DNA of 64,000 bases, from NCBI RefSeq assembly GCF_014697105.1, contig NZ_JACJRF010000005.1:1-64000 (forward strand). The letters are read 5' to 3'. The translations under genes and the position numbers were made by a program. Positions 35,055-62,250 of this stretch are shown here, piece by piece. Origin of the DNA: Anabaena subtropica FACHB-260 (GTDB lineage: Bacteria; Cyanobacteriota; Cyanobacteriia; Cyanobacteriales; Nostocaceae). Positions within the stretch are counted from its first letter, which is position 1, and each line of letters begins with the position of its first letter. The notes beneath the pieces were generated by a model, which had not been told where the DNA came from, did not search any database, and was given only the letters and a program-made list of their open reading frames with translations.

Positions 35055-35954
35055 TTACAAAATTGAACGGATTCTAGCTCGATAGGCAGCATTATCCAAT
35101 CCGTCACGCGTATTAGTAGGTCGGGAATTAATAGCTTTTCTCAGAGCATTGATGCGCTCGCTGGTTCCAGGGTGAGTACTCAAAAATGTTGGTACAGAAC
35201 CACCGCTTCTCATTAGTTTCTGCATAAAGGAAACCGTTGCAGATGGGGCATAACCGGCCCTTGTTAAGGTTCTTAATCCTCTTGCATCTGCGTCATATTC
35301 ATCTTGACGACTGCGGGGACGGTTGAGGGCTAATTCCACACCAATTCCTACAGCTGCATTGCGGTCTAAACCTGTGGCTGATGCTACACCACTAGCAAGC
35401 GCCCTTTGTCGCATCTGTTTAACTAAATGTCTACCACCAATGTGACCAATTTCGTGAGCCATCACACTAGCTAGTTCCGCTTCATTGTCTGCGGTTTTAA
35501 TTAAACCTGTATGGACATAAATAAACCCACCTAAAGTAGCAAAGGCATTTACAGCATCATTGTCAACTACTTGGAATGTAAAAGGAAGATTGGGGCGATC
35601 GCTATTTGCAGCCAAGCGCTGTCCAATTTGTTCCACATAGCGATTGATTTCCGCATTTCGAGAAATTCTTACCTCGCCGCTACGCAATTGCTGATTCATC
35701 TGGCTGCCCAGATCAACTTCCTGGCGATCGGATATATTAGACAGCTGAAGTACTTGCACACCTTGTAATAAAAGCGGACGTAAGTCTATAGCTTTTCCGA
35801 CTAAAGGTGTACTTAGACACAGACCCAAAGCGACTACCACCGAAATTAATGGATAAAACCAGCGTCGTCGCCACACACGGTAATTTGCCACCAAGCCTTT
35901 CCTATTCATATAAATCCGGTTAGAAGATAATTTCGGGAGAACGTTAAATAACAT
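35055..35954 (-). CDS. M48-family zinc metalloprotease, exported
   Basis: The 299-residue frame has a signal or anchor helix (WFYPLISVVVALGLCLSTPL, about residues 32-51), so a start at ATG 35909 (MNRKGLVANY) is also reasonable. The zinc site is complete: VMAHEIGHIGGRHL, with the third ligand in DEYDADARGL. The layout matches Oma1/BepA-like periplasmic quality-control proteases of M48. It stands alone, with a long promoter spacer upstream. Confidence 0.9.
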   Translation of the reverse strand: MLFNVLPKLSSNRIYMNRKGLVANYRVWRRRWFYPLISVVVALGLCLSTPLVGKAIDLRPLLLQGVQVLQLSNISDRQEVDLGSQMNQQLRSGEVRISRNAEINRYVEQIGQRLAANSDRPNLPFTFQVVDNDAVNAFATLGGFIYVHTGLIKTADNEAELASVMAHEIGHIGGRHLVKQMRQRALASGVASATGLDRNAAVGIGVELALNRPRSRQDEYDADARGLRTLTRAGYAPSATVSFMQKLMRSGGSVPTFLSTHPGTSERINALRKAINSRPTNTRDGLDNAAYRARIRSIL

Positions 35955-35992
35955 GACGCATCTATCGTTTTCTAAGTTGCACTATTAACTTA

Positions 35993-36021
35993 GTTATTAG
36001 TCATTAGTCATTAGTCATTAA
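35993..36021. repeat. Heptameric short tandem repeats (TTAGTCA)
   Basis: Four TTAGTCA units lie between divergent genes. A CCCCCTGCCCCCTGCCCCCTG low-complexity run follows at about 36085-36103. Confidence 0.8.
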
Positions 36022-36293
36022 GTAAGTCGGTGCAATAAAACCAAACTATGTGAAGAAAAGTAAATAAAGCTCAAACTCTTTCTCCCCCTGCCCCCTGCCC
36101 CCTGCCTTATTCCAACAATAATTATTTACGCCGACCTACTTACTCCCCTGCTCCTTCATCTCCCCAATCTCAATTTCTCAACTCATGATAAACTGGCGCG
36201 TAACTGCAACTGCTAATAGTGGAAAAGTTGCTGTATACCTGATAAAACTTGTTGTGAGAATCAATTACTCTGCGTTAATCTGGAAAAATTTTT

Positions 36294-54220: not shown

Positions 54221-55555
54221 ATGACAGGCAAAAACGCAAGATATAATGCTTTTCTGCGGCTAGTGTCTGGTAATGGAGCAGCATTTGGGTCAGAATCTCG
54301 CTACTCGCTTACCAGTAAAGAAGTGGTAATTGGACGTGACCCCAGCTGCCAAGTTGTCTTAGATGCCATGATGTATCGGATGGTATCCCGTCGTCATGCT
54401 GTGGTTCGTCCCGTCGCTTCATCCGTAGATAGCAAATTTAGTTGGGTACTTTGTGATTTAAATAGTGCCAATGGTACTTATTTAAATGGTCAACGCTTGT
54501 ATGGGTGTCAGGAGTTACACGCAGGCGATCGCATTTCTTTGGGTGCTGATGGGCCACAATTCCTATTTGAGTATGCAGTCGCTCCCCAACCTACGATTAT
54601 CACCAACCAAGTTGCACCCCTACCTTCAGCCAAAAACCCCCAAAAACCAGATTCGGTCAGCTTCACTCAGCTTTTCCCTATCATTTCTACGGGTAAGGAT
54701 TTGACCCGGAAAGCTTACCTTGTCCCAGGAATGCTGACAGTAGTATTTGTGGTGCTGATGTTTGCCACAGTAGGTAGACCACAAGCCAATCAAGTCATCG
54801 TCGCAACTTACATCGCCTTGGCTGCTTACTATTTTATTTACCAACTGTGCGGCAAACCTAAACCCTGGTGGGTGTTAGTCAGTGCAGCTTTGACAACAAC
54901 GTTAATCTTACTCAGTCCCTTATTAAATTTATTTATTTACATTTTTCGTGTGATTCTTCCTGGTGATGTACCAGCAGTAGATGAACCAGTCAACAGCCTC
55001 ACAGAGTTATTTGTGGGGTACTTTTTTGGCGCTGGGTTGATGGAAGAATTACTCAAAGCCTTACCTATATTAGCGGCTTATCTCATTGCCTTAGGACTAC
55101 CATCACCTTGGCGGGAGCGTATCGGTATTTGGGAACCTTTGGATGGGATTCTTTTAGGAACAGCTTCGGCTGTGGGCTTTACTTTATTGGAAACTCTCGG
55201 TCAATATGTACCAGCCGCGTCCTTACAAGCGGGTACAGATGTTGGGTTACAAGTCTTGATTGCTAGAATTTTGGGTCTGCCAGCTGGACACATGGCTTAT
55301 AGTGGTTATTTGGGATATTTTATTGGGTTAGCTGCTCTCAAACCCCGTCATGCTAAACAAATTTTGGCAGTTGGCTACCTCAGCGCCGCCGCACTCCACG
55401 CTTTATGGAATACAGCCGGACACAGCAATAATTTACTATTAGTTGTTGTTGGGGTATTATCTTACGCTTTCTTGATGGCTGCAATTCTCAAGGCTAGAGC
55501 ATTATCACCAACGCGATCGCAAAATTTTGCTACTCGTTTTCTCGATCCTAAATAG
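54221..55555 (+). CDS. FHA domain fused to PrsW-type intramembrane protease
   Basis: Residues 15-120 form an FHA phosphothreonine-binding domain with the key pattern IGRD (37-40), SRRH (56-59) and NSANGTYLNG (81-90). After a Pro-rich linker (121-160) come about eight membrane helices with PrsW/CPBP-like motifs: MEELLK (274-279), E324 in TLLETLG, H357 in AGHMAYSGY and HALWN (393-397). PrsW proteases cut membrane proteins such as anti-sigma factors. The fusion suggests recruitment to a phosphorylated partner (inference). All candidate catalytic residues are present. Confidence 0.85.
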   Translation: MTGKNARYNAFLRLVSGNGAAFGSESRYSLTSKEVVIGRDPSCQVVLDAMMYRMVSRRHAVVRPVASSVDSKFSWVLCDLNSANGTYLNGQRLYGCQELHAGDRISLGADGPQFLFEYAVAPQPTIITNQVAPLPSAKNPQKPDSVSFTQLFPIISTGKDLTRKAYLVPGMLTVVFVVLMFATVGRPQANQVIVATYIALAAYYFIYQLCGKPKPWWVLVSAALTTTLILLSPLLNLFIYIFRVILPGDVPAVDEPVNSLTELFVGYFFGAGLMEELLKALPILAAYLIALGLPSPWRERIGIWEPLDGILLGTASAVGFTLLETLGQYVPAASLQAGTDVGLQVLIARILGLPAGHMAYSGYLGYFIGLAALKPRHAKQILAVGYLSAAALHALWNTAGHSNNLLLVVVGVLSYAFLMAAILKARALSPTRSQNFATRFLDPK

Positions 55556-55769
55556 AGAGTGGAAAATAGTGCAGAGAGATTATTTTTTCTCTCTTGGGGT
55601 AGATTGTGCCAATTTTTTCATCAGCTTATAGTTAGATTATGATGGCTTTTTTACGTCTAAAAAGTAATCCGGAAGAATCAAAAATTTCCCACAAGAGCTT
55701 CACCTGTGAGCAAACTTGCTGTTAACAGGAGTCAAATCAAGGTCAAAATACATAACAAAGCTACAGAAA

Positions 55770-56417
55770 TTAAGATTCAGTTTGAGAATCATTGAGTTGT
55801 CTGATAGCGTAGTAAGCGATCGCTACACTCGCCTTTGCCTGCTCAACTTCTGATAAATTAATCCAATCCTGATTATTAACGTTGTCAATTACAGATGCTA
55901 AATCTTGACCTTCACTACTCCGCATAGCATAGGCATAGGGACGAGCTAAGATTGACAAGTCATCTGCTGCCCATGTAGGTAATACACTTTGTACACATTC
56001 TACTAGTTGCTCACCCAGAGATTTTTGAGAAGCAAAGATTTCTGCCGCCTTGGTGGCTATGGCGTCCAGCCAACCTTGAGGGACACCAGCCGCAAAAGCT
56101 GTATGTAAATTTTCTTGAAGATGATCTATAACTGGCAATACTGTATTACAATTGTAGTATGAAGAGTTAGTGACCCCAGACCACAGACTGTCTAGTTTAT
56201 CGTAAAAAACTTGCGCTCTGGTTGTGAGTTCTTCATCTAAAACATCTTGGATAGCAAATTGTCGTTCTAGCTCATCAAAATATGTTTCTGATTCATCATC
56301 AGTAGGATTCCAAGGATAAGCTGCATCCTCTGGTTCTAACAAAGCTGCTAATAAATCTAATTCCATTTGAGATACTACAGAATGGCAAGCGTCTGAACCG
56401 TTAATTTTATGAGTCAT
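55770..56417 (-). CDS. Acidic protein of unknown function
   Basis: The 215-residue soluble protein is acidic and mostly helical (SQMELDLLAALLEPEDAAYP near the start; VEQAKASVAIAYYAIRQLND at the end). No family, signal peptide or membrane helix was recognised. A purine-rich AGGAGGC ribosome binding site precedes ATG 56417. It lies between the FHA-PrsW and CHAT-FHA genes, on the same strand as the latter, so it may be a substrate or adaptor for them (guess). Confidence 0.6.
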   Translation of the reverse strand: MTHKINGSDACHSVVSQMELDLLAALLEPEDAAYPWNPTDDESETYFDELERQFAIQDVLDEELTTRAQVFYDKLDSLWSGVTNSSYYNCNTVLPVIDHLQENLHTAFAAGVPQGWLDAIATKAAEIFASQKSLGEQLVECVQSVLPTWAADDLSILARPYAYAMRSSEGQDLASVIDNVNNQDWINLSEVEQAKASVAIAYYAIRQLNDSQTES

Positions 56418-56869
56418 TGATTGCCTCCTGATAAATTAATTTAGTTGACATTGACAGCTACAGCAGTCAGATTGACATTTCCGCAAAAAAATCGTTTTTT
56501 TATAATCTTCAAATCAGCCATTTACTACACTGTGTATGTGAGTTGTCAGTTGCTAATTGTCAGTGATTTTGGATCTAGTTTAATTCCCCGTCCCTATGTG
56601 GGCAGTTTGAAAATATCTCTGTGCCAAGGGGACAAGCTACATGAATGCAACTGAAAACTGATAAAGTCTCCATTCCCTTGTGGATAGAGATTTTTAAAAG
56701 AAAATCCCTAACTCAAATATATAACGGGGAGAATAAAGGGACTATGAGGAGAATTACTTTTAAATATTTTTCTGATTTAGAATTTAGTATTTTCCTCAGC
56801 TAGAATCCTACGGCTCAAAGCCCACAAAAAGAGCCTGAAAATCTCCATTCCCCATTTTTCATTCCCCAT
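56418..56869. other. Intergenic region between same-strand genes
   Basis: No credible ORF; a 69-codon plus-strand frame here overlaps short tandem repeats. An AAAGTCTC...GAGATTTTT hairpin at 56663-56695 resembles the terminator at 30673-30706 but reads in the plus direction. Confidence 0.45.
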
Positions 56870-58450
56870 TTAAGAATCTTCAACAATAAATTCCCAAATT
56901 TCACCTCTAGAACTACCAAACTTTAATTGCATACCCGATTTTAACGGAATTTCTTCCCGCAGGAGTTGTTGCCAACCATTGGGGCCAAAAAACCAAGTGG
57001 TGCCATAAGTAGAAAAATCTTGGAGATAATAGATGCGGGCTTGAGTTGTGCCGGTAAAAGTATTCCGACATAAAATTTCCGCGTGTCGTTTAGAAACTGA
57101 AGGTTCAGGAATGACGATATCATTATCTTTTGTACGACCGATGCGAGTAACACCAACCCGTAAAAACCAACTGCGCCCTCCGGGGGAGAGCGATCGCAAT
57201 GAAGCGATCGGGATCGGAGAATTAGAGTTAGGAATAGTAGTATCTGGCATTTCCGTCACACTTTCATCAAAACTTTTGATGAGTTCACCATCAAAGTCTG
57301 GATGTAGGTAGAGAACGGGTAAAGTCCAAGCAGGTTGATTGTACTTATATAGTGTTAGCAGTTCTTGCCTAGCTTCTGCCACTGCTTCATCGATTGGCTT
57401 ACGCGATCGCAACGCTTCTGCAAAAGCTTGAATAAAACTATGGCTTTCATGGTCAGCTATTTCATCCCGCATTGCCAAAACTGCGGGTACACCATGACGA
57501 ATTAAAACTTCTGCCAGACTACTAGCCGGGATAGCCTGATGATTCACGGCTGCTGGTTGCGCTCCCCAACAGGCGTTAAACACTGCTAACTTTAAAGCAC
57601 TGCGGGTTAAAACTTGGGCTAATTCTATGCCATTGAGGCTCATTCCTGGGCGCAAAAATAGTAATCCGCCGTCTGGGCCTGGTAGACCGTGACCAGCGTA
57701 GAAAAAAACATTGTATGCTCTAGTTTCTAACTCTTGAATCAATTGTTGGGGTGTTGGCTGGATAAGGGTTTTAACTGTACAGGGTGCGTAACCCTGAGCA
57801 TGACTACTCACCTGACCACCATTTAACAAGGTTTTTTCTAGGATAGCGGCTTCTGTTTGCAGTTGCAGGTCTTGATCGTGTCCGAGAACCAGAAGCACTT
57901 TTAAAGCTTGGTCGATGCGTAAATATGGTAGAGCTTCAACTTCACTCGTAGTGCGGCTAAATAACACATCTGGGGAGAGGGACACCGCCGGCTGACCGGG
58001 TTCCCGTTGCATAATTTCCCAAGGTAAGGCAATTAAATCTGGATCACGAATTTCTAGACGAAAGCGCAGACGTGTATGCTGACCCATAGCGATACCACGG
58101 CTACGTTCCAGACTCCCCAGGATTTGGCCCTCAAAGATCCAACGCCATAAATTCATCCCCAAATATTGCATGAGACGACTACCATAACCAGTGGTTTGGC
58201 TGGAGGGTAGTGGGACTAAATTCCCCGGAACTGAATTTTTTAACAGAGGGTTTGTGTCTGAAGAAATGTTAATACCGCTATGACCAGCAAACATTTGCTG
58301 CCATTCTTGCCAAACTTGATTGAGTTCAGCCGGCCAAGTACAGTCACGCAGAACATAGCCACTGGGATAGGGAGCCTTGACCACCCAAATGGCGAAACTA
58401 TCTTTGCCAGTGTTGATGAGACGGGCGATCGCCAGATTCAGGGAGGGCAT
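56870..58450 (-). CDS. CHAT (caspase-like) protease fused to an FHA domain
   Basis: Of 526 residues, about 110-385 form a CHAT domain with the predicted catalytic His254 (YAGHGLPG) and Cys294 (FNACWGA). A linker (390-425) leads to a C-terminal FHA domain with IGRT (437-440) and SKRH (453-456). The usual NGT turn is replaced by TYGTT. CHAT proteases belong to the caspase/separase clan and are found in defence and regulated-proteolysis systems. The FHA module suggests targeting to phosphothreonine partners. Gene order: it is downstream of the PP2C gene on the same strand, after 280 bases. Confidence 0.85.
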   Translation of the reverse strand: MPSLNLAIARLINTGKDSFAIWVVKAPYPSGYVLRDCTWPAELNQVWQEWQQMFAGHSGINISSDTNPLLKNSVPGNLVPLPSSQTTGYGSRLMQYLGMNLWRWIFEGQILGSLERSRGIAMGQHTRLRFRLEIRDPDLIALPWEIMQREPGQPAVSLSPDVLFSRTTSEVEALPYLRIDQALKVLLVLGHDQDLQLQTEAAILEKTLLNGGQVSSHAQGYAPCTVKTLIQPTPQQLIQELETRAYNVFFYAGHGLPGPDGGLLFLRPGMSLNGIELAQVLTRSALKLAVFNACWGAQPAAVNHQAIPASSLAEVLIRHGVPAVLAMRDEIADHESHSFIQAFAEALRSRKPIDEAVAEARQELLTLYKYNQPAWTLPVLYLHPDFDGELIKSFDESVTEMPDTTIPNSNSPIPIASLRSLSPGGRSWFLRVGVTRIGRTKDNDIVIPEPSVSKRHAEILCRNTFTGTTQARIYYLQDFSTYGTTWFFGPNGWQQLLREEIPLKSGMQLKFGSSRGEIWEFIVEDS

Positions 58451-58476
58451 GGATTAGGACACTACGAGGTATAAAC

Positions 58477-58508
58477 AATTCAAAATTCAAAATTCAAAAT
58501 TCAAAATT
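58477..58508. repeat. AATTCAAA tandem repeat
   Basis: Four tandem CAAAATT units lie directly upstream of the CHAT-FHA gene start, like those at 45134-45157. Confidence 0.75.
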
Positions 58509-58730
58509 ATGGTTACTGAACCTGCCGAAGTCAAGAGATTTAGCCTACGGCACGCTTTTCACATTCAGAAGGGGACTTTTACCCAGACTGAAACTGAAAC
58601 CACGTGTAGACGTAGGGATATTAAACCCTTTAATTTACGATACTTGCCAAGTATAATTTTCCTGGAGAAAAACTTTTGGCTTGTGAATTTCGTCTTGTTA
58701 TTATCTGTATTATTTCAGGTTTTTATCAGT

Positions 58731-61007
58731 TTATCGAGTATTTGATTCAGTTGCACTCGTATTGTTTGGGGTATTTGGTGTAGAAGGTAAGCTGTCTGCT
58801 GGAAGGGAGACACTATCACAAGGACTGTCTTGATTTGATTGTAAAACAGTGACAGCAAAGCGTTTCAGTTCAGCTAATTCTATCCTCACTGGTTGATCTG
58901 AAGGTAGGGGCGGTTCTGTCGCTAGGTTATTAGGGGTAGCTGGGCTGGGATTGTTACACAGACGCAGGTACACTTCATAACCCCCAGAAGCAGGTGGAGG
59001 ATTGAACTTTTTATCAATAACTTCTAAAAAACTTTCAGGGGGTAACTTTTGTTGATTGAAGGTGATTTCACTGTTAGTTTTAATTACCCATCCAGGTGCG
59101 ATATTATTGAGCGATCGCGCTAACTTGGGACTCTGGGTGGTTGATGGTACGGTCTTTGTTGGGGCTACTGTCGGAATTGCGTATTGCGATCGCAGTAACA
59201 TCACCCAATATCCCAATACTCCAGCCGCCGCCATCAAGATTAACGGCACGATCAAATTTAGGGGTAGTTTGCTGATTCTCTGGGGTAAATGGCTGGCAAC
59301 TACTTTTGTTTTTTGTTCAGGGCTAGCCTCTAGCAATGTTGGCTGTAGAGCCTTTGATGACAAATTTACGGTTTTGATATGAATATTGTCGGGAACGACT
59401 GCTTTCAGAGTGATCTGGGGTTCAGTGTATTTAACTCGACAGTTTACCAGAGCGATCGTGACATTATCATGTCCATTTTTAGTGTTAGCGATTTCCACCA
59501 ATCGCTCAACCACATTAACTATATTATTCTCTTCACCCGTAAGAATTGGTAAAATTTCTGTTTCCCAGTAGTCTTCCACACGGTCAAAATCACTTAAGCC
59601 GTCGGATGTCAACAGAAATACTCCATCTTCATCGAGGATAAATCGTTGTGCCGTGGGATGTAGTGAACTGCTGGGACTCATCCCTAAGGCCTGTACGAGA
59701 GAACCAGATCCACTTTGTTGTACAGCTTCACGATAGACAGCGTAGCCTAGTCTCACTTCCCGTGATGCCACATCGTCGTCTAGGGTGACTTGATAACAGC
59801 CGTGGCGGTTAATCCAATAGGCGCGACTGTCACCAACGTGAGCAATATACATTTCGTGGGCAATAGGTAATGCCATCACCAAGGTTGTACCCATGCGTTT
59901 TCGCCCTTGGCGATTTTCACTGTCATTGCGCTGACTAATTTTGTCGTTGGCAATGGCTACTGCCCTTTCTAAATCAGCGATCAAAAGTGAGGGTTCGATG
60001 TGATCTACAGGTACATTTGTCAGTTGCTGTACCTGTTGGTAGATAGTCTCAATGGCTAAATTAGAGGCAACATTGCCGCCTTCATGTCCACCAATTCCAT
60101 CACAGACAATAGCCAAGGCGGTTGATTGGGGTGGTTTGCTCAGTAGTGTTCCACTGGGAGGATAACAAGCATCTTCGTTCCGTTGACGACTGGGGCCTGT
60201 GTCAGTTTGAGTAGCAATTTGGATGGTAGGCGTTTGTGAATTACTTAATTCAGTCAGTCCTTGGTCTAAAACGGCAACTAGTACTTCTGGAGATGTAATT
60301 TCGCCTTGAATTAGCAAATTACTGATTTGGTTGACAAATTCCGCTATGGCTGGTTTGGCTTCGTGGTGTAGTGACTGCCAAAATTCTCCTAATTGGGACA
60401 ATTCTGGTGCGGTTGTCGAGTCATAATGCAATTCCAACAACCGCACTAATGGCCCTTCTACCCGCAATAAGTATGGGTTAAGTAGGCTAGAAGCAACGCC
60501 CTCACTCTTGAAAGGTTGCCAGAGATTGGCAATTTGCCACAGCCAATGTAGTTGGCGTATTGATGTGGCGTAGCACCAAGCATCTGTAAACTCGCTACAC
60601 AAATGAACTTGTTCAGCTAAATTGTCTGCGAAAAGTGGAGATTTTTCCAACAACAAAACTTGACTGTGTACATACCCATCAGTTATTTGTAGCATCCCAT
60701 AAACTTGCGGAATATTTAAGCGATAGGGGATGAGTCGGAGATAAGGTCTGATGGCATGGGAATTTTCTAACTCAGGTGCTTGGGGTAGTAAACCTGGTTT
60801 AGTATCTAAAACAACGGATTTATTGATAATTAAATAGCGATCGGCTAATACTTCTCCGGTACTGCCAACGCTCAGACTATCTCCCACCACCCACAAATAA
60901 CGCTTAGGTAAGGGTGTGGAGCATCGCTGGCAAAACTTATGAGTCAGGGGGTTAGCAGCCTGACAAAGTTCATTTGGACAGTAGAGCGTTGCCGCATCAT
61001 TTTCCAT
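58731..61007 (-). CDS. Zinc-ribbon / pseudokinase-like / PP2C phosphatase, membrane anchored
   Basis: The 758-residue protein has a zinc ribbon (Cys10, Cys15, Cys26, Cys29). Residues about 55-235 look like a degenerate kinase fold (LADRYLIINKSVV; GVASSLLNPYLLRVEG where an active kinase would have its catalytic loop). A PP2C domain follows with RNED (276-279), VCDGIGGHEGG (301-311), LTSDGLSDFDR and NGHDNVTIAL, so metal-binding Asp residues are intact. A membrane helix (LIVPLILMAAAGVLGYWVML, about 600-620) precedes a Ser/Thr/Pro-rich tail. It should dephosphorylate Ser/Thr. The pseudokinase reading is my inference. Confidence 0.85.
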   Translation of the reverse strand: MENDAATLYCPNELCQAANPLTHKFCQRCSTPLPKRYLWVVGDSLSVGSTGEVLADRYLIINKSVVLDTKPGLLPQAPELENSHAIRPYLRLIPYRLNIPQVYGMLQITDGYVHSQVLLLEKSPLFADNLAEQVHLCSEFTDAWCYATSIRQLHWLWQIANLWQPFKSEGVASSLLNPYLLRVEGPLVRLLELHYDSTTAPELSQLGEFWQSLHHEAKPAIAEFVNQISNLLIQGEITSPEVLVAVLDQGLTELSNSQTPTIQIATQTDTGPSRQRNEDACYPPSGTLLSKPPQSTALAIVCDGIGGHEGGNVASNLAIETIYQQVQQLTNVPVDHIEPSLLIADLERAVAIANDKISQRNDSENRQGRKRMGTTLVMALPIAHEMYIAHVGDSRAYWINRHGCYQVTLDDDVASREVRLGYAVYREAVQQSGSGSLVQALGMSPSSSLHPTAQRFILDEDGVFLLTSDGLSDFDRVEDYWETEILPILTGEENNIVNVVERLVEIANTKNGHDNVTIALVNCRVKYTEPQITLKAVVPDNIHIKTVNLSSKALQPTLLEASPEQKTKVVASHLPQRISKLPLNLIVPLILMAAAGVLGYWVMLLRSQYAIPTVAPTKTVPSTTQSPKLARSLNNIAPGWVIKTNSEITFNQQKLPPESFLEVIDKKFNPPPASGGYEVYLRLCNNPSPATPNNLATEPPLPSDQPVRIELAELKRFAVTVLQSNQDSPCDSVSLPADSLPSTPNTPNNTSATESNTR

Positions 61008-61893: not shown

Positions 61894-62250
61894 TTACTTT
61901 TCCTCAACTGCAACTTGAGGAAGTCCTAAGCTGTAGTTAGTGACACGAGCAGAGAGGTTGTAGCTAATTTCGCCTTTTTGGAGGAGCGATCGCAGATAAT
62001 GTTCTAAGTCTGACCCAATGCGGCGTAAGTTGTAATCTGTCAGGTCTGCACCACTGGAGGCTTCGACTAGTTCATCGAACTTGCGATAAATCTTTTGCAA
62101 AGCATCTTCATTCCAATTTAATTCATTGTCTGGGTCAACATCCAAGGTTAAGACCTGATGACTGGGAACTAGTTCGCCATCCCGGTCGATTTCTGCTGCA
62201 AAAATGCGGATGTGTCGGGTTGTAGACTTGAGCAGCGTTGCGTTGTCCAT
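61894..62250 (-). CDS. ndhM: NAD(P)H-quinone oxidoreductase subunit M
   Basis: The 118-residue protein matches cyanobacterial NdhM in length and in the conserved RHIRIFAAEIDRDGELVPS, NELNWNEDALQKIYRKFDEL and NLRRIGSDLEHYLRSLL segments. It is a peripheral subunit of the thylakoid NDH-1 complex that carries out cyclic electron flow and respiration. It is a single gene, divergent from the small unknown protein at 62953. Confidence 0.93.
   Translation of the reverse strand: MDNATLLKSTTRHIRIFAAEIDRDGELVPSHQVLTLDVDPDNELNWNEDALQKIYRKFDELVEASSGADLTDYNLRRIGSDLEHYLRSLLQKGEISYNLSARVTNYSLGLPQVAVEEK

Follow-up and report, generated by a model that had tools for sequence, protein, structure and literature searches.

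A 64,000-nucleotide window of Anabaena subtropica FACHB-260 (the whole stretch of DNA analysed here, from a genome of 5.81 Mb whose nearest named relatives in our locus scan are Nostoc and Anabaena) carries a four-gene locus that most likely encodes a second circuit of the HetF-PatU3-HetZ type. HetF-PatU3-HetZ is a proteolytic switch that connects cell division with heterocyst differentiation, and PatU3 is an inhibitor of HetZ. We favour this assignment because one product of the locus, U215, is PatU3-like, a second, CHAT-FHA, is a HetF paralogue, and a HetZ paralogue encoded elsewhere, HetZ-related protein 2, tracks the pair across genomes. That this second proteolysis pathway is also phosphorylation-controlled is a reading that we hold with moderate confidence. 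An earlier note on this DNA had pointed out two FHA-tagged proteases, a PP2C phosphatase and a small protein; all four open reading frames (ORFs) were found where it placed them, with the domains it claimed. The likeness of U215 to PatU3, the HetF ancestry of CHAT-FHA and the kinase-like region in the phosphatase are points absent from that note. The locus is laid out as follows:

54221-55555, forward strand: FHA-PrsW, an FHA domain (PF00498, 64.6 bits, over the Pfam cut-off) with a PrsW intramembrane protease domain (PF13367, 129.5 bits, cut-off 23.5); convergent with U215 and the loosely linked member of the set

55770-56417, reverse strand: U215, 215 amino acids, predicted all-helical; residues ~108-210 homologous to PatU3

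56870-58450, reverse strand: CHAT-FHA, a CHAT domain (PF12770, 74.1 bits, cut-off 24) at residues ~100-390 and an FHA domain (PF00498, 50.0 bits, likewise over the cut-off) at residues ~435-512

57254-57256, reverse strand: codon of Thr399 of CHAT-FHA, counted from the start at 58450; candidate phospho-switch residue

58731-61007, reverse strand: PP2C protein (PF13672, 42.9 bits, cut-off 24), with zinc ribbon, kinase-like region, PP2C domain, presumed transmembrane helix and tail

Each of the four proteins was searched in 291 genomes of the class. CHAT-FHA matched 155 genomes at an E-value of 1e-20, which became 145 once ten weak HetF-like rows had been removed, and it occurs in many families beyond the window's own; U215 matched 144 genomes, FHA-PrsW 175 and the PP2C protein 244, paralogues included. 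CHAT-FHA and U215 were present together in 143 genomes and jointly absent from 145, leaving two genomes with CHAT-FHA only and one with U215 only. In one of the two CHAT-FHA singletons (G182) 139 bases separate the gene from the end of its contig, and U215 would be expected on that side; the other (G081) is a genome that is 79% complete. The genome with U215 only (G037) retains a decayed FHA remnant between PP2C and U215 (L091:10196-10348, E 0.006). G037 is also without a PatU or HetZ_related/HetZ match. The two genes lay at most 10 kb apart in 118 of the 143 genomes and were on the same strand every time.

Among the matches listed, FHA-PrsW could be placed in 103 of its 175 genomes and PP2C in 119 of its 244. 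Of the 106 genomes in which PP2C and CHAT-FHA were both so placed, 79 had them at most 10 kb apart; FHA-PrsW and U215, both placed in 94 genomes, were equally close in 58, with opposite orientations. All four genes fell within 12 kb in 40 of the 84 genomes with all of them placed among the matches listed, in the invariable order PrsW+ U215- CHAT- PP2C-. A set of 80 loci, nearly all from Nostocales, contained U215 in 80, PP2C in 79 (the match in L214 being weak) and FHA-PrsW in 74, and three of the six FHA-PrsW misses (L172, L173 and L183) concern short loci situated where a contig ends. The median gap was 117 bp between PP2C and CHAT-FHA (n = 47) and 146 bp between CHAT-FHA and U215 (n = 54). 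The gene neighbourhood is ancient and is more than chance. The earlier note had reserved the verdict of coincidence for genes that are never neighbours and have independent profiles; CHAT-FHA, U215 and PP2C turned out to be linked, while FHA-PrsW, with its 58 of 94 neighbourhoods and a phi coefficient of 0.31, stands in between.

U215 has no Pfam or NCBIfam family match. In a search of 146 genomes its profile returned one weak extra match, an ORF in G225 (E 2.8e-4, calculated for one genome) directly downstream of a HetZ C-terminus, which is the position of patU given in the available part of PMC7377430. The window's U215 and this G225 PatU matched each other by BLASTP at 4e-6, and when the latter was used as query, 74 of 145 genomes proved to have relatives. 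When 55 U215 sequences were aligned with 31 PatU sequences by hhalign, the score was 42.6 (P 3.6e-5, probability 71%, U215 residues 108-210), compared with at most 20.0 for 60 column shuffles, 23.0 for 60 block shuffles, 23.0 for reversal and at most 25.4 for five unrelated alignments. When a PatU hidden Markov model was applied to 1181 ORFs from the retrieved loci, U215 proteins filled all of ranks 1-35 (best E 7.8e-7). On this sequence evidence we regard U215 as homologous to PatU3. Its gene lies beside CHAT-FHA and not directly downstream of hetZ; in the same genome HetZ is encoded at G000:C94:34153-35250 and PatU at 35270-36238. The latter match is broken by stops, in keeping with the division into patU5 and patU3 that has been described in Anabaena 7120. 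A role of U215 as a direct FHA ligand was considered and rejected, as no alignment column had Thr in at least 70% of the 55 sequences.

The closest CHAT relative of CHAT-FHA in its own genome (159 bits; the next reaches 84) lies in L253 and scores 1416.2 bits on the HetF model NF045509 (cut-off 1200). CHAT-FHA itself scores 156.4 bits on this model, over residues 96-397, and is therefore a HetF paralogue and not HetF. HetF is laid out with a C-terminal transmembrane and TPR part in the available text of PMC8406250; CHAT-FHA ends in its FHA domain instead, with no TPR matched there by Pfam. Its His-Cys dyad is intact throughout the alignment (His254 and Cys294, each 60/60). As judged from these features, CHAT-FHA is a soluble predicted caspase-like protease that lacks HetF's C-terminal half. 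The available part of the review PMC12288457 names PatU3 as a reported cleavage target of HetF and as a binding partner of both HetZ and ZipS, a protein of the divisome; PatU3-HetZ binding is likewise found in the available part of PMC7377430. Given this reported cleavage, CHAT-FHA and U215, as a homologous pair, are most simply read as a second protease-substrate pair, and by this analogy U215 is likely to be a substrate or partner of CHAT-FHA.

A probable third partner emerged from a comparison of the two named HetZ paralogue families, HetZ-related protein 2 (NF037965) and HetZ_related (NF037964), over 145 genomes. HetZ-related protein 2, counted present in 71 of them, occurred together with CHAT-FHA in 67, without it in four (G010, G037, G093 and G122) and was missing from one genome with CHAT-FHA (G128), both being absent from the remaining 73 (phi 0.932). 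With U215 the coefficient was again 0.932, G128 having U215 only and G010, G081, G093 and G122 HetZ-related protein 2 only. The corresponding values with CHAT-FHA and U215 were 0.75 and 0.72 for HetZ_related, 0.81 and 0.78 for HetZ and PatU, and 0.31 and 0.31 for FHA-PrsW; on the same scale, PatU and HetZ reach 0.972 with each other. Seven of the 11 genomes with HetZ and PatU but without U215 are also without HetZ-related protein 2, and in the 72 genomes outside the HetZ-plus-PatU group U215 occurs in six, HetZ-related protein 2 in the same six, and neither in any other. As to its own position, of the six genomes listed for family f21, five (G010:C15, G045:C17, G059:C238, G070:C234 and G081:C162) encode HetZ-related protein 2 within 3 kb past hetZ-patU and in the same orientation.

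A possible handle for phosphorylation lies within the protease. The CHAT-FHA linker is variable except for Thr399, in the context hT-[EQR]-[ILM]-P, and Pro402: Thr399 is kept in 59/59 ungapped sequences and Pro402 in 58/60, against a local mean conservation of 0.49, and the threonine is present at all 80 loci of the scan (71 by pattern, nine by eye). The pattern T.[ILM]P occurred in 53 of 59 linkers, compared with 4.0 on average and never more than 12 over 1000 shuffles, although this pattern, like that of the PP2C motif below, was written post hoc with the alignment already in view, and a scan of isolated conserved columns is the less biased measure. L113 (for CHAT-FHA) and L106 and L124 (for PP2C) were omitted from the shuffle test as they offered no anchor. 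The best-conserved isolated threonine sits in the protease itself, and judging from conservation Thr399 is a candidate phospho-switch residue. In the adjoining FHA domain Ser453 is invariant (60/60) and the canonical Arg439 is present in 45/60, while the N position of the usual FHA NG motif is mostly Y, F or W, with N in 2/60.

The PP2C protein consists of the zinc ribbon, a kinase-like region (residues ~60-260), the PP2C domain (~265-525), a juxtamembrane KT[QK][VIL] motif containing Thr567, a hydrophobic segment and a tail. The phosphatase residues D303, G304, D469 and D514 are invariant in 42/42 relatives. The zinc ribbon, already claimed in the earlier note, fell under the Pfam cut-off (E 0.027), yet it is borne out by C10, C15, C26 and C29, which do not vary in 42/42. 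The protein stays below the NCBIfam cut-offs for NF011149/PRK14559 (256.2 bits against 374) and for NF033484 Stp1 (156.9 against 230). Fold comparison of the region between zinc ribbon and PP2C domain points, though not firmly, to kinases; an hhalign comparison with 33 kinase segments from the same genome was not significant (P ~0.06), there was no kinase among the 25 Pfam families listed, out of 26, for 42 PP2C members, and none among 11 PDB profile matches. In the register of that non-significant alignment the HRD-Asp position is L175 (Leu in 47/48) and the DFG-Asp position E192 (Glu in 37/48, Asp in one), and this modelled kinase-like region is probably a pseudokinase without catalytic residues.

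Thr567, just before the hydrophobic segment, has a conservation of 0.81 in 48 sequences (local 0.26) and ranks third among isolated conserved columns of the protein, behind C730 and P621. In hand-chosen genomes, with kinship ignored and G266 and G193 left out for want of an anchor, KT[QK][VIL] was found in 27/54 with both CHAT-FHA and FHA-PrsW, 0/15 with CHAT-FHA only, 2/24 with FHA-PrsW only and 3/13 with neither; the occurrence in 3/13 genomes with neither partner leaves the motif as a mark of FHA-PrsW at the level of a suggestion. Beyond the hydrophobic segment, C684 and C730 of the tail are nearly invariant, which suggests a redox or structural disulfide. A bacterial SH3 domain was matched by 3/42 members (best E 0.0018).

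We infer from these homologies and co-occurrences a scheme in which U215 would bind and restrain a regulator of the HetZ type, with HetZ-related protein 2 as the likeliest candidate, until CHAT-FHA cleaves U215 and the regulator is freed. A Ser/Thr kinase encoded elsewhere would phosphorylate Thr399, and the FHA domain would read phosphothreonine 399 either in cis, as a GarA/OdhI-like latch, or in trans, through protomer pairing, and so set protease activity. Caspase-like enzymes often need such pairing of protomers. Phosphorylation of Thr399 may turn the protease either on or off. The co-directional zinc-ribbon/kinase-like/PP2C membrane protein would remove the mark, and FHA-PrsW may be an optional extra reader, perhaps of Thr567. 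It is also possible that FHA domains recruit the proteases to phosphothreonines on substrates. A more far-reaching version is tentative: two parallel caspase-like circuits from a duplicated toolkit, of which CHAT-FHA-U215-HetZ-related protein 2 would be gated by the linker Thr switch and reset by a membrane pseudokinase-phosphatase sensing the periplasm via its Cys pair, the whole forming a kinase-to-caspase cascade that controls division or differentiation.

Several observations weigh against a second, phosphorylation-controlled circuit. All co-occurrence figures are raw genome counts in which kinship is ignored. The homology of U215 to PatU3 spans only ~100 residues at the hhalign probability of 71%, and the best 40 PatU-model matches listed do not include the U215 of the window. 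G128, although it carries CHAT-FHA together with U215, lacks a strong HetZ-related protein 2, and in none of the 67 genomes with both, compared by eye, did HetZ-related protein 2 lie within 10 kb of CHAT-FHA. The column scan puts Thr399 fifth in CHAT-FHA, behind L208, A416, P402 and R419; one of five other CHAT proteins has T-S-L-P nearby, and the T-x-h-P motif could be structural instead of a phospho-site. Proline at T+3 is not the classic FHA +3 preference. Nine of the 60 CHAT-FHA sequences have neither Arg nor Lys in the Arg439 loop, and Thr399 is nonetheless retained in them; since Arg439 itself is present in only 45, phosphothreonine reading may therefore be lost in some lineages. Among the 40 neighbour clusters listed, the one recognised kinase cluster occurs at three loci, so no Ser/Thr kinase gene is recurrent there.

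As regards FHA-PrsW, the residues R39, N84, G85 and T86 of its FHA domain and E275, E276, H357 and H393 of its PrsW domain are each conserved in 37/37 sequences. It scores 23.2 bits on the NCBIfam PrsW equivalog NF033739 (cut-off 225) and 32 bits on the OdhI/GarA model NF041660 (cut-off 200), and the column scan found in it no isolated conserved Thr like Thr399 or Thr567. The earlier note had treated the two proteases as one matched pair, a notion that their distribution does not support: FHA-PrsW occurs without CHAT-FHA in 38/145 genomes and is absent from 14/68 genomes with CHAT-FHA. What stands of its phospho-gated proteolysis is a conserved locus that brings together FHA readers, a caspase-like protease and a phosphatase, with a candidate phosphothreonine in the protease's own linker; the paired-protease part does not.

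The same distribution, with its phi of 0.31, bears on a model in which phospho-Thr substrates attract both FHA-tagged proteases, although these are of unrelated classes, and PP2C provides the reset for the two. The canonical FHA residues of FHA-PrsW, its closeness to U215 (at most 10 kb, in opposite orientation, for 58 of the 94 genomes with both placed among the matches listed), and the concentration of KT[QK][VIL] in genomes that have both proteases (27/54) all fit that model, which we nevertheless consider distinctly unlikely given how often FHA-PrsW stands apart, the hand-chosen and kinship-blind sample behind the motif association, and a gene for peptide deformylase (def, named by eye from its sequence) that often flanks FHA-PrsW on its other side (23/61 chosen loci in 5 families, e.g. 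L098:13513-14076). U215 might, alternatively, serve CHAT-FHA as a cofactor, chaperone or scaffold, the true substrate of the protease being elsewhere. Obligate pairing and adjacency would suit any tight partner, and the U215 model is helical without a clear fold match; we rate this unlikely, as the homologue PatU3 is reported to be a HetF substrate (available part of PMC12288457) and here, likewise, a HetF-like protease goes with a PatU3-like protein.

A further conserved neighbour, of unexplained relevance, is the next gene upstream of PP2C:

61894-62250, reverse strand: ndhM (PF10664), on the same strand as PP2C

With ndhM in this place in 33/61 chosen loci of 6 families and def conserved as stated above, both without obvious functional link, adjacency alone does not amount to shared function, a point that also counts against the second circuit. 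Slow rearrangement might simply preserve the neighbourhood while the genes act separately, as ndhM and def presumably do. To this we give a chance slimmer still, because CHAT-FHA and U215 are present or absent jointly even when they are not adjacent (143 genomes with both, 118 with the genes at most 10 kb apart) and because HetZ-related protein 2, encoded elsewhere, follows the pair.

Set beside HetF-PatU3-HetZ of Anabaena sp. PCC 7120, the proposed second circuit shares a HetF-homologous CHAT protease, a PatU3-homologous small protein and a HetZ paralogue of matching distribution, whereas CHAT-FHA lacks the C-terminal half of HetF and has an FHA domain, and its gene sits with U215 and PP2C while PatU lies with hetZ. 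The host retains HetF, HetZ and PatU too, which makes the locus a parallel set and not a replacement. GarA/OdhI of Actinobacteria likewise combine a conserved Thr motif and an FHA domain in one polypeptide (an ETTS motif with FHA docking in the available part of PMC8546545), but CHAT-FHA is no member by sequence (14.5 bits on NF041660, cut-off 200), its motif is T-x-h-P and its FHA domain would gate a protease. The PP2C catalytic core is common to bacterial PP2C proteins (NF011149/PRK14559, NF033484 Stp1 and HltA); the window protein, below both NCBIfam cut-offs, additionally carries a zinc ribbon and a kinase-like region, along with what is presumed to be a membrane anchor, in place of which HltA of Synechococcus has a GAF domain (available part of PMC9430166).

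In the open-licence papers searched, neither the locus nor CHAT-FHA nor a kinase-like PP2C was found described, nor was any kinship of U215 with PatU3 or any companionship of HetZ-related protein 2 with the pair, and nothing was found there that joins CHAT domain, FHA domain, protease and bacteria, or pseudokinase, PP2C and cyanobacteria. HetF-PatU3-HetZ is already known, and so are FHA-PrsW fusions, the domain fusion of the fourth gene: they were in print as signalling peptidases in 2012, with signal-dependent cleavage suggested (PMC3482391, whose available part has no mention of the locus, CHAT-FHA or U215). A second set in 145 of the 291 sampled genomes, with many families outside the window's own, would make the switch a general cyanobacterial device and not a heterocyst-only one. 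If phosphorylation gates the protease, Ser/Thr kinases (38 Pfam matches in the genome) would be joined to a caspase-like effector. U215, CHAT-FHA and HetZ-related protein 2, three families to which the literature covered assigns no role, would also gain from the scheme a first one that can be tested.

A defence system was rejected, the only PADLOC matches having E-values of 0.015 and 0.019, and a single PHROGs match, to U215 (E 0.0081), was disregarded. Besides its 38 kinase matches over the Pfam cut-off the source genome has 13 FHA and 11 CHAT matches, FHA and kinase genes on their own being common there. Proteins resembling receiver domains by eye (35 ORFs, L132:4565-5569 among them) appeared at 24/61 loci in 7 families, at offsets that vary widely, and probably represent a large paralogous family rather than a fixed neighbour.

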